From an uncultured Saprospiraceae bacterium (GTDB lineage: Bacteria > Bacteroidota > Bacteroidia > Chitinophagales > Saprospiraceae): DNA of 10,367 bases. The notes under the pieces were generated by a model, which saw nothing but the letters and a program-made list of their open reading frames with translations, had not been told where the DNA came from and searched no databases. The position numbers were made by a program, and so were the translations under genes. This document shows positions 2,739 through 9,759 of the stretch, in pieces (within the stretch, counting starts at the first letter, position 1; every line of letters begins with the position of its first letter). The stretch spans positions 1 to 10,367 of the forward strand of contig CALGLY010000023.1 in NCBI GenBank assembly GCA_937959095.1, given 5' to 3'.

Positions 2739-3005
2739 ATGACAAAAGAAGAAAAAGAATTACAATCCGTCACCGATCTCGTTGCTTTCCAAGTGATGGC
2801 GAAGATTTTCCTACAAAAAGAACGCGAAATCGAAGTAATAGTCGATGAAGATGCGGCTTCCCATCAGTCCGATAAGATGGAAGAAATGGTAGCAGAACAT
2901 CAATCCGATTCGGATATCCCTGAGAATCGCTGGGGCTTGACTGTTCCTTTAGCTTGGAAATTAACACGACTTTGGAGTCAATATCGGCGAATGATTGGCT
3001 TTTAG
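2739..3005 (+). CDS. Hypothetical 88-aa protein
   Basis: I do not recognise this protein. It begins MTKEEKELQ, has a helix-prone charged N-terminal half with an acidic middle (VIVDEDAASHQ..., about residues 33-60) and a basic, tryptophan-containing C-terminus (WGLTVPLAWKLTRLWSQ, about 65-81) that could be an amphipathic helix. There is no signal peptide or clear membrane span. The ATG follows an AT-rich stretch typical of Bacteroidota leaders. The codon choice (Lys AAA, Glu GAA) resembles the neighbouring genes, which favours a real gene over the overlapping minus-strand frame (3009-2770). It is divergent from the sigma operon, and its stop is 11 bp before a long palindrome that may act as its transcript end. 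Confidence 0.55.
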   Translation: MTKEEKELQSVTDLVAFQVMAKIFLQKEREIEVIVDEDAASHQSDKMEEMVAEHQSDSDIPENRWGLTVPLAWKLTRLWSQYRRMIGF

Positions 3006-3016
3006 GCAACTCCCAA

Positions 3017-3150
3017 TAATAAACAACACATTTTATGTTACTCTTTTCCTCCTGACAAATCTTAAAAAAGCCTTATGTAGCTAGGCTATACGCGGTTTTT
3101 GAAAATTTATCAGAAGAAAAAATAGCTACCCTAAAATGTGTTGTTTATTA
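3017..3150. repeat. MITE-like palindrome with perfect 19-bp ends (element 2)
   Basis: The ends are an exact 19-bp inverted repeat, TAATAAACAACACATTTTA at 3017-3035 and its complement at 3132-3150. The inner arms pair imperfectly (3036-3062 with 3101-3131). The centre contains a smaller hairpin, AGCC (3069-3072) with GGCT (3084-3087). It lies 11 bp after the stop of the 88-aa gene. The size (134 bp), the lack of coding capacity and the terminal inverted repeats fit a non-autonomous element; a transcript-end role is an alternative. No clear target-site duplication is visible. Confidence 0.8.
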
Positions 3151-3210
3151 ATGTGAATTACCTAAATTTCAATTTCAAAAAGCTACTTTTGGGTTTTATA
3201 TAAAAGGCAT

Positions 3211-3433
3211 TAGGTACAACGTATTAAGTATTAGGAACGCGAAAAAAATAAATGTAGATTCTTGACAGGGTATTTCGCCCATATTTTTCACTTTGAAGCC
3301 CTGAAAATATCAACATTTATGCGGGTTTCAAAGCAAAACTATGAATAAAACCTCTCTCTCAAGAATGTACATTTATTTATTTCGCGTTCCTTAGGAAAAT
3401 TCTAGTTAATACTTTGTACCTAATACTTAATAC
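3211..3433. repeat. Long palindrome upstream of surE (element 4)
   Basis: The core arms 3234-3265 and 3359-3390 match at 30 of 32 positions as an inverted repeat (GGAACGCGAAA... to ...ATTCTTGA). The outer arms 3211-3227 and 3406-3422 (TAGGTACAA.GTATTAA) match at 16 of 17. In addition GTATTAAGTATTA at 3221-3233 has an exact inverted copy at 3421-3433. The 93-nt centre (3266-3358) is non-coding. The repeat ends 9 bp before the surE ATG, so it occupies most of the surE leader and could affect its expression if transcribed. Confidence 0.82.
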
Positions 3434-3442
3434 AAAAATAGA

Positions 3443-8250: not shown

Positions 8251-8817
8251 ATGACAACACAATTTAAAATCAGTCTTCAACAACTCGACTTGACGTTTAT
8301 TCAGCAATTGAAAGAACAATATGCAGATGCGATGCTAGAAATTAGTATCGCACCTGCGGAAGGCAGTACACCAATGAGCGAAGATGAATTTTGGACGGTC
8401 ATTGATAAATTAGATTGGGATAAGCAAGAAGATCAGGCTGTTTTAAAACCTGCTGTAGATTATCTAGTAACTATGCCGACTCCTGCTATTTATCACTTTC
8501 ATAATCTACTTTCTGAAAAACTGTTTCAACTTGACCAACGCAAATATGCGGAGCAAGTTGGTTATACTGAAACACGCTACTTTTCCGTAGATACTTTTCT
8601 TTATACGCGTGCTTGTGTAGTAGCAAATGGTCCTACTACTTACCAAGCCGTGTTGCAAGAAGAAATGGCTATGCCTAATGATTTTACCTTTGAGTCAATC
8701 CTGTATTTAGCAGCAGAAGCCTATAAGCAAAAAACAGGTAAGGAATTTATAGCGATTCCACAGTATCGTTACGAAACCTACTCGAATAAGGAAGGTTGGG
8801 ATGAAAAAGCGACATGA
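8251..8817 (+). CDS. DUF4240 domain-containing protein
   Basis: This 188-residue protein has a DUF4240-like domain from about residue 42 to 165. It opens with MSEDEFWTVIDKLDW (42-56), the Phe-Trp-x-x-Ile-Asp signature, followed by LLSEKLFQLDQRKYAE (86-101), FSVDTFLYTRACVVANG (111-127) and FESILYLAAEAYKQKTGKEF (147-166). Residues 1-40 are an additional N-terminal segment without recognised features. DUF4240 has no established biochemical function. The gene is divergent from the SEC-C gene, and its TGA overlaps the ATG of the next ORF (ATGA at 8814-8817), implying coupled translation. The family assignment is from memory of the motif pattern. Confidence 0.82.
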   Translation: MTTQFKISLQQLDLTFIQQLKEQYADAMLEISIAPAEGSTPMSEDEFWTVIDKLDWDKQEDQAVLKPAVDYLVTMPTPAIYHFHNLLSEKLFQLDQRKYAEQVGYTETRYFSVDTFLYTRACVVANGPTTYQAVLQEEMAMPNDFTFESILYLAAEAYKQKTGKEFIAIPQYRYETYSNKEGWDEKAT

Positions 8818-9104
8818 TGGAGAAGAAACGCAATTTTACAGGACATGGCAACCGCTTAGATAATCCTGAACCACATCATTTGTACGAAATCAGAGATAGT
8901 TTAGAAGATGATGTATTCAAATATGGCATTAGTGCCAAACCGAATCAGAATTTTCAGGATTTGAGAATTAGCAGAATTTTTCTTTTTAAGAAATTTTCGA
9001 TTTCTTTAGAAAGAATAATGCAATGTAAATCGAAGATTTACGAGCAAAGTAATTCTCTAAATTCTCCAATTCTGAAAATCCTGATTAAAACAGAAGAAAG
9101 ATGA
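8814..9104 (+). pseudogene. Truncated GIY-YIG/URI-like ORF fused in frame to a palindromic repeat
   Basis: The ORF has 96 codons. Residues 1-43 (RNFTGHGNRLDNPEPHHLYE... to ...KYGISAKP) resemble the start of GIY-YIG/URI-type domains found at the ends of Bacteroidota polymorphic toxins and as small standalone proteins: LYEI (23-26) and KYGIS (36-40) sit at the GIY and YIG strand positions. The remainder of such a domain, including its catalytic Arg and Glu, is absent. From codon 44 exactly (8943), the protein is encoded by a 144-bp repeat copy that stays open in this frame. The tail (NQNFQDLRIS..., then a basic Ile/Lys/Ser-rich stretch) is therefore repeat-derived. It is probably a nonfunctional remnant or a chimeric small protein. 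The start could be 8814 or 8817. Its stop overlaps the ATG of the GxxExxY gene. Confidence 0.6.
8943..9086 (+). repeat. GxxExxY-associated structured repeat, copy A
   Basis: This is a 144-bp unit. The outer arms 8943-8978 and 9051-9086 form an inverted repeat with 30 of 36 matches. Inside are a variable hairpin (8980-8993 with 9001-9015) and a conserved hairpin, GTAAATC-GAA-GATTTAC at 9025-9041. The 3' module 9020-9086 is nearly identical to those of copies B and C. It lies inside the GIY-YIG-like ORF and ends 14 bp before the GxxExxY ATG. Confidence 0.9.
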
Positions 9105-9490
9105 TAAAAGACCCACTAACCTATGGAATTATTGGATGTGCCATGAAAGTACATCAAAAAATGGGACCTGGTTTTCAAGAGCTCATTTATCAGCGTTGTT
9201 TATCCATTGAATTAAGACGCGTAAATTTTTCGTTTGTAGAAGAACAAACGCATCCTATTTATTATGATGAAATTGAAGTGGGAAGGCGTAGAGCAGACTT
9301 TGTGGTGGAGAATAAGGTAGTTCTTGAATTGAAAGCAGTAGTTGCACTACAAGATGTGCATCTTGCTCAAGCCAAAAATTATACCGTAGTTTACGATTTT
9401 CCCAAAGGCTTATTGATTAATTTTGGAGGAAAAAGTTTAGAATATAAATTACTCTTTAATCCTAAGTATAATCAGGATTTTCGGAATTAG
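9101..9490 (+). CDS. GxxExxY protein, PD-(D/E)XK nuclease superfamily
   Basis: This 129-residue protein carries the name-giving motif Gly24-Phe-Gln-Glu27-Leu-Ile-Tyr30, preceded by LTYGIIGCAMKVHQKMGPG. A nuclease-type core follows: Asp66 (RRRADFVV), then Glu76-Leu-Lys78 (VVLELKAV), the D...ExK arrangement of PD-(D/E)XK enzymes. Next come the conserved block LQDVHLAQAKNYTVVYDFPKGLLINFGGKSLEYK (about 83-116, quoted by its key residues H87, Q90, Y94 and N107-F108-G109) and a short tail. Nuclease activity has not been established for the family, as far as I know. The last seven codons including the stop (NQDFRN) lie in repeat copy B. The ATG overlaps the stop of the upstream ORF and follows a purine-rich GAAGAAAG. 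Direct copies of the same repeat on both sides make this look like a cassette. Confidence 0.93.
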   Translation: MIKDPLTYGIIGCAMKVHQKMGPGFQELIYQRCLSIELRRVNFSFVEEQTHPIYYDEIEVGRRRADFVVENKVVLELKAVVALQDVHLAQAKNYTVVYDFPKGLLINFGGKSLEYKLLFNPKYNQDFRN

Positions 9491-9613
9491 AGAATTGACA
9501 GAATTATTCTCATTAAGAAATCTTCGATTCATTAATGAGAAATAGTGCAATGTAAATCGAAGATTTACGAGCAAGGTAATTCTGCAAATTCTCTAATCCT
9601 GAAAATCTTGATT
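9470..9613 (+). repeat. GxxExxY-associated structured repeat, copy B
   Basis: This 144-bp unit is in the same orientation and of the same length as copy A. The outer arms 9470-9506 and 9577-9613 match at 32 of 37 positions as an inverted repeat. The variable hairpin is a perfect 10-bp stem, TTCTCATTAA (9507-9516) with TTAATGAGAA (9532-9541). The conserved hairpin is at 9552-9568 and the conserved 3' module at 9547-9613. It overlaps the final 21 bp of the GxxExxY gene and supplies its TAG. Confidence 0.92.
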
Positions 9614-9619
9614 AAGAGA

Positions 9620-9759
9620 AAGAATTAGAAGTTGGAAATTAGTAGAATTCCCCTCTCCTTCTATGAGATCACCAATTTCATAGAAGGAAGAAAGCATGTA
9701 AATCGAAAATTTACGAGCAAAGTAATTCTGCAAATTCTCTAATCCTGAAAATTCTGATT
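9620..9759 (+). repeat. GxxExxY-associated structured repeat, copy C (diverged 5' half)
   Basis: The 3' module 9694-9759 is almost identical to copies A and B and keeps the conserved hairpin (9698-9714, with its innermost pair lost by a G-to-A change). The variable hairpin has a wholly different but perfect 10-bp stem, CCTTCTATGA (9657-9666) with TCATAGAAGG (9678-9687). The 5' outer arm is diverged or incomplete. The copy begins about 6 bp after copy B and ends 11 bp before the hisS ATG. Confidence 0.85.

Follow-up and report, generated by a model that had tools for sequence, protein, structure and literature searches.

A GxxExxY nuclease-fold gene between palindromic repeats in a Saprospiraceae genome: a candidate element composed of a gene and its arms

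The stretch of DNA analysed here (10,367 nt, hereafter the window) is contig CALGLY010000023.1 (C23) of assembly GCA_937959095.1, from an uncultured Saprospiraceae bacterium. The assembly is of 4.45 Mb in 857 contigs and is 73.9% complete. Near the end of the window lies a gene of the GxxExxY family that is accompanied by three copies (A, B and C) of a palindromic repeat (Table 1). Together, gene and folded repeats look like a single instance of a widespread and apparently undescribed element.

Table 1. Features of the GxxExxY locus in the window
Feature	Position	Strand	Evidence
Copy A, complete 144-nt palindromic repeat	8943-9086	+	sequence alignment, folding
Arms of copy A	8943-8978 and 9051-9086	+	
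Variable inner hairpin, copy A	8980-9014	+	consensus fold
Conserved GTAAATC-GAA-GATTTAC hairpin, copy A	9025-9041	+	sequence, consensus fold
GxxExxY gene, 129 aa, predicted PD-(D/E)XK nuclease resembling Cas4/lambda exonuclease	9101-9490	+	profile matches, alignment, fold comparison
Copy B, complete 144-nt palindromic repeat	9470-9613	+	sequence alignment, folding
Conserved hairpin, copy B	9552-9568	+	sequence, alignment
Copy C, left arm decayed, inner hairpin and right arm kept	9614-9759	+	alignment, folding
Copy C, inner hairpin; right arm	9698-9714; 9724-9759	+	alignment
Upstream open reading frame, 3' end passes through copy A	8814-9104	+	open reading frame list, Pfam

Copies A and B are direct repeats with 83% identity across the full 144 nt (84% over 146 nt in a second comparison). 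Copy A stops 14 bp short of the GxxExxY start codon, and the final 21 bp of the gene (seven codons including the stop) are copy B sequence. The upstream open reading frame (ORF), whose stop overlaps the GxxExxY start (ATGA), has a weak match to Tox-URI2 that is confined to its first half. RNA folding gave z scores of -7.7 for A, -9.6 for B and -5.6 for positions 9614-9759, each against 200 shuffles. A consensus fold from eight copies of the window genome, with C trimmed to 9624-9759 and a partial copy on contig C619 excluded, consists of an outer stem, the variable hairpin and the conserved hairpin. At 16 of its 56 pairs both sides have changed with pairing preserved in at least one copy, and 11 of these 16 lie within the variable hairpin. 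The RNAalifold covariation term is +1.92 kcal/mol, which is no bonus; conservation of the structure is therefore supported mainly by energy and repetition. Rfam gave no match at or above gathering score in the window. The original prediction, made from the letters of the window, had described equal-length direct repeats placed 14 bp before and 21 bp inside the gene, as well as this three-part architecture, and both are confirmed. It had also counted three structured copies, which is correct for A and B but not for C: the left arm of C aligns poorly, the good match to B is limited to the last 64 nt (94%), and the inner hairpin is altered to GTAAATC-GAA-AATTTAC.

The gene scores 123.8 bits against TIGR04256 (curated cut-off 35) and 117.1 bits against PF13366 (cut-off 22), and these are its only family matches. 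The G, E, Y, D and ExK residues are invariant across 31 diverse members, the window protein included. The residue pattern D..ExK..QxxxY, part of which is the so-called QxxxY motif, is common to GxxExxY proteins and to Cas4, lambda exonuclease and RecB-type nucleases. The predicted fold contains the PD-(D/E)XK core and its top matches are DNA nucleases of the Cas4/lambda exonuclease type; RNA splicing endonucleases also occur among the Foldseek matches, at lower rank. A sequence search for solved structures gave no match to the family (best E 0.19). Judged from its predicted fold and alignment, the protein resembles a Cas4/lambda-exonuclease-like PD-(D/E)XK nuclease with the catalytic residues kept. 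Its nearest named proteins include some from Lewinellaceae and Saprospiraceae.

The window repeat is mostly found without a gene. Further full-length copies are present in the same genome on contigs C274, C616, C684, C827 and C699, together with a partial copy on C619 (98 nt), short forms on C218 and at three places on C80, and possibly another piece on C180 (19 nt, E 0.012). No GxxExxY gene was detected by tblastn with 31 GxxExxY proteins at the nine other repeat-bearing loci in the stretches fetched (up to 1.5 kb per side). The repeats of C274, C616, C684, C827, C699, C619, C80 and C218 are thus dispersed, mostly gene-less intergenic palindromes. On C80 the three short forms lie between repeated stretches (14036-14945 and from 15455 on; L019/L013); downstream of these is a partial ORF for a reverse transcriptase, with a match to retron type XIII (PADLOC RT_XIII, E 1.2e-119). 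Outside its own genome the window repeat was recovered by BLAST in 6 of 147 genomes, in fragments of 30-39 nt, while a GxxExxY match was found in 95 of 148 genomes in and around the window's family, 93 of them above the curated cut-off. A literal pairing of this exact repeat with GxxExxY genes, as first proposed, fails because the repeat is mostly solo in its own genome and a second GxxExxY gene there, on contig C566, is without it. Two outcomes that the original prediction had itself named as telling against its hypothesis were thus obtained for the exact repeat. Mostly solo repeats would also be expected of a system like REP/RAYT, however, and a general pairing of gene with arms does hold across genomes. 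The association had looked weak because BLAST used only the window repeat, and this changed once arms of other sequence were sought.

The flanks of GxxExxY genes in related genomes carry palindromes that, read by eye, differ in sequence from those of the window. A motif-free test was therefore applied, in which sequence common to the 300 bp before and the 300 bp after the gene core is scored in either orientation and a score of at least 35 is positive. In 60 regions taken from the best-scoring GxxExxY matches of the relatives, mostly those with room on the contig, 41 of 59 GxxExxY loci were positive (one was dropped for a short flank). The other ORFs of these regions, counted from 100 aa upwards, gave 10 positives out of 237. 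A second, named set comprised the best 80 of at least 583 confirmed loci, three of which were dropped for short flanks. By record title it is mostly Bacteroidota but also includes Planctomycetota, Chloroflexota, Cyanobacteria, Alphaproteobacteria and others; the loci outside Bacteroidota are mostly from metagenome bins and are possibly misassigned. Here 49 of 77 GxxExxY loci were positive (33 with inverted and 16 with direct repeats) versus 4 of 128 other ORFs. Seventeen of the 29 other loci nearest to the window protein also reached 35, and ParE toxin genes of the relatives gave 0 of 29 (one of 30 dropped). Because many loci have a neighbourhood in common by descent, those with similar neighbouring DNA were merged, reducing 206 loci to 160 groups; 98 of 158 scorable representatives (62%) remained positive, against 14 of 365 control ORFs (3.8%) in both sets together. 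The controls were called mechanically, with flanks of 330 bp that slightly exceed the 300 bp used for the genes, and the score counts any common sequence, such that a few positives (e.g., L370) resemble duplicated coding DNA. Sliding-window minimum-energy folding of whole loci was dropped, as it did not separate the palindromes from background.

The common flank stretches are mostly ∼20-50 bp long. By eye, arms consist of about four short units with 7-nt cores at a spacing of roughly 8-13 nt; in L243, a Saprospiraceae assembly, 46 of 47 arm nucleotides are identical. The commonest unit outside the window's clade is CRCRRAG. In the named set it occurs at 7.95 per kb in forward and 1.83 in reverse orientation in the 350 bp upstream of the gene, at 2.07 and 8.27 in the 350 bp downstream, and at a background of 0.23-0.51 per kb at 1-3 kb. 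The 60 loci of the relatives give 4.15/1.35 per kb upstream and 2.52/4.30 downstream (forward/reverse), with 0.22-0.32 at 1-3 kb. The unit is forward-rich upstream and reverse-rich downstream, and the arms are therefore inverted. In the window's clade, arms are of the type ATTGTCTGAATCAGAATTTTCAGAATTTTCAGGATTA in L347 and similar in others; in the window the arm is AATCAGGATTTTCGGAATTAGAGAATTGACAGAATTA, which can be aligned with L385 and L347 although the TGTCT head is absent from it. The wider idea that GxxExxY genes of many genomes lie between short-period inverted arms is strongly supported.

Arm type follows the protein. Loci were labelled R when the two 300-bp flanks together held at least three CRCRRAG units, G when they held TGTCWGAA, and otherwise as other, the motifs having been picked after part of the data had been seen. 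A protein tree built with FastTree covers 206 loci, of which 101 are R, 49 G and 56 other. Along it the label switches between R and G three times, whereas 200 shuffles had a mean of 41.4 changes and a minimum of 34. The window's clade has 46 G, 0 R and 29 other loci and the remainder 101 R, 3 G and 27 other; after merging, the counts are 28 G, 0 R and 25 other versus 82 R, 0 G and 25 other. Forty loci that were fetched later display the same division (17 G, 0 R and 10 other within the clade; 4 R, 0 G and 9 other outside). Fifteen genomes carry both clades, with 11 G, 0 R and 13 other loci in the window's clade and 15 R, 1 G and 12 other in the other clade; a G locus of the former together with an R locus of the latter is present in only four of them (G056, G074, G124 and G134). 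A motif-free comparison of 20,913 pairs from different genomes without similar neighbouring DNA, in which each named locus was treated as its own genome though L218 and L228 belong to one, points the same way. Flanks are similar in 0.4% of the 253 pairs below 30% protein identity, 0.1% at 30-40%, 3.4% at 50-60%, 12.3% at 60-70% and 33% at 70% or more. The Mantel correlation between flank and protein similarity is 0.38, and the largest of 100 permutations reached 0.03. As arm type and flank similarity follow the protein through different neighbourhoods, gene and arms are passed on together, as a unit whose location changes. That the GxxExxY protein recognises the arms would be the simplest, though not the only, reason for this co-variation, and from these comparisons a good one to infer.

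Presence and absence could be compared at one site. In genome G124, an 837-bp gap from arsR to a DUF6428-like gene is filled by a palindrome array, a GxxExxY gene and a second palindrome array. The same arsR-linked gap is 53 bp in one congener (G112) and 31 bp in another (G092); flank divergence is too great to place the ends of the block. Among 28 of the 29 fetched loci besides G124, the nearest upstream same-strand ORF is 11-60 bp away in 23, of which 21 are arsR-like by eye (those of G112 and G092 included). Of the remaining five, four have gaps of 80, 275, 275 and 516 bp, and the fifth lacks such an ORF. One 275-bp gap (L321) follows arsR and includes a short palindrome, but a GxxExxY gene would not fit into it. 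Arms of the G124 type occur elsewhere in G124 and G112, and no GxxExxY gene was found in the fetched stretch at the 12 such loci checked. Relatives of the G124 protein are absent from phage records at E ≤ 1e-5; plasmid records hold eight, and the two inspected are in ordinary operon neighbourhoods.

Several sites were noted in addition. Similar DNA flanks the gene on both sides across species or genera in three groups of loci (L235/L236/L240; L233/L259/L265/L268/L279/L292/L296; L239/L274/L275/L276/L291). Cassettes of the window's clade (L346-L414) are frequent within type I and III restriction-modification operons. In a Prosthecobacter assembly (L255), a GxxExxY cassette with near-perfect arms lies between two ORFs that, by eye, are presumably the two halves of a methionine synthase.

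A unit of gene plus arms is well supported. Beyond this, gene and flanking palindromes probably represent one genetic element in which the nuclease is cognate to its arms and the solo repeats are gene-less copies. A GxxExxY gene between inverted arms would spread and evolve together with them, and arms without a gene would be copies that lost the gene or never had one. The 129-aa nuclease would bind its own arm type and act on folded or cruciform arm DNA, after which recombination or replication repair would place a copy of the block in a different copy of the arms or at a fresh intergenic position. Insertion would usually be in operon orientation, so that the gene is read from the host transcript. 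This scheme builds on the flank repeats, the co-variation of arm and protein, the comparison of one site with and without the block, the orientation bias described below, the catalytic residues and the predicted fold; arm binding, cleavage and the repair step are what we infer from them.

A number of observations weigh against this interpretation. For the C566 gene, the 300-bp test detected no repeat common to the two flanks (scores 20 and 20), although other palindromes are visible in its flanks by reading. More generally, 60 of the 158 merged loci score below 35. The window copy lacks the TGTCWGAA head, and its locus, like that of C566, is labelled other. One of the 15 genomes with both clades, G134, also breaks the pattern with a G locus that does not belong to the window's clade. 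The labels were visible when the clade for the R and G counts was chosen; the tree count and the Mantel test are independent of that choice. The co-variation itself is linked inheritance of gene and arms, of which direct recognition is only one possible cause. The fit to Cas4 on superposition is loose (Foldseek TM score 0.47, root mean square deviation 13.2; VIA root mean square deviation 4.6). At the loci compared, neither a target-site duplication nor an excision product nor transposition was observed. An empty counterpart of the window site was not found: 22 of the 35 other hisS loci were read by eye, and the genes upstream of the window site were not seen in them. Some GxxExxY loci occupy one conserved site across species or genera, and therefore not all of the cassettes are mobile now.

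Of 141 merged loci with both neighbours known, the gene is co-directional with both in 96, opposite to both in 15 and mixed in 30; the cassette therefore sits in operon direction. This placement fits read-through expression, but an RNA-level element would show the same bias. In such an element, base pairing of the arms within the operon transcript would leave the ORF in a loop, and the RNA would be removed or processed by RNase III or by the protein itself, as with intervening sequences of the S23 type in 23S rRNA. The stable folds of the repeats are consistent with this, and so is a second gene family, TIGR02436 (S23, a four-helix bundle), which in the relatives has the flank-to-flank layout in 19 of 29 loci (one of 30 dropped), 17 of the 19 being inverted and the arms having, by eye, a plain 7-nt period. 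The Coxiella 23S rRNA intervening sequence has terminal inverted repeats that form a 28-bp stem around the S23 ORF, and a mobile origin is suggested for it (PMC4990558). Read-through alone would yield the orientation bias, however, the best fold matches are DNA nucleases rather than the lower-ranked RNA splicing endonucleases, and solo arms are found at many intergenic sites; an RNA-level intervening sequence is accordingly an unlikely explanation.

Two palindromes of the window itself, at 3195-3438 and 1659-1736, have arms resembling those around TIGR02436 genes and, by their sequence, look like solo copies of an element of that type. In alignments, 3190-3440 matches L164, from a congener (score 55), and 1530-1745 matches L167, from the window's own genome (score 42). 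Further strong inverted repeats, at 1537-1652, 2994-3173 and 3233-3391, are mostly outside the main ORFs and have arms of 31-47 nt that are 81-94% complementary.

Alternatively, the gene might be an accessory of defence or restriction-modification, the arms its regulatory or recombination sites, and mobility secondary. Neighbours of the window's clade do include HsdS specificity domains (20), SWI2_SNF2 (8), HSDR_N (8), ResIII (7) and N6_Mtase (6) among 142 of the 143 neighbours of 75 loci, and the protein resembles Cas4, with a weak PADLOC match to Cas4b (E 0.0012). In the other clade, none of these five is among the 25 commonest families of 115 neighbours out of 242 (every second locus, 63 of 131, with one neighbour omitted by hand), and the window gene lies between ORFs of the DUF4240 and Tox-URI2-like types and hisS, with no restriction-modification operon. 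This explanation is less probable still. A reading in which the gene is a bystander beside independent REP-like or terminator elements that gather near stop codons would suit the window repeat, most copies of which are solo and many next to gene ends, and the repeat-less second gene but conflicts with the excess over control ORFs and ParE genes and with the match of arm type to protein clade; it is highly improbable here, and chance or independent REP-like repeats are very unlikely for the GxxExxY family as a whole.

REP-associated tyrosine transposases (RAYT, TnpA-REP) are Y1/HUH transposases paired with repetitive extragenic palindromic (REP) elements, which are mostly solo. The original prediction had likened the locus to this pairing, with a PD-(D/E)XK gene in place of the transposase. 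Scattered, mostly solo palindromes with one dedicated protein gene between copies are indeed a common property, and the protein is of the PD-(D/E)XK type. The locus is nevertheless not a REP/RAYT pair: no Y1/HUH transposase gene lies between the window repeats, GxxExxY arms carry internal short-period units, and arm type matches protein clade. Overall, the interpretation first proposed is partly supported. The nearest described element is the Coxiella 23S rRNA intervening sequence, which likewise has a small ORF within terminal inverted repeats and a proposed mobile origin (PMC4990558). The S23 protein family is unrelated to GxxExxY, however, and GxxExxY sites are between protein genes and not in rRNA; the window cassette is not in a 23S rRNA helix and has no S23 four-helix-bundle ORF. 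Cas4, lambda exonuclease and RecB-type nucleases are alike in fold and residue pattern, but the GxxExxY protein is shorter, and no CRISPR (clustered regularly interspaced short palindromic repeats) or recombinase genes are among the seven window ORFs scanned. Miniature inverted-repeat transposable elements and insertion sequences also have inverted termini, and in the window genome gene-less copies outnumber gene-bearing ones, but the GxxExxY cassette is without a transposase. In the parts of the open-access literature covered, with subscription journals and preprints outside the search, no description of an element of this cassette type was found; the term GxxExxY appears there, not in connection with such an element, and six arm sequences looked for were not found in open-access literature.

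A bolder proposal, offered as a tentative possibility, is that GxxExxY cassettes are cross-phylum mobile elements whose sole protein, a Cas4/lambda-exonuclease-like nuclease, cuts or resects its own clade-specific, short-period palindromic arms in the form of folded DNA, the elements spreading by repair-copying without transposase, recombinase or reverse transcriptase, and that S23 cassettes may be a second class built alike.

Genes of the GxxExxY type are common among the genomes searched in and around the window's family. Should gene and arms prove to be a single element, this would explain why the gene family is scattered and why C-termini extend into repeats, and it would account for part of the short-period palindromes of these genomes. 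The two clades provide matched pairs of protein and DNA for a direct bench test of recognition, and the frequent placement of the window's clade in restriction-modification operons may represent a link to defence.
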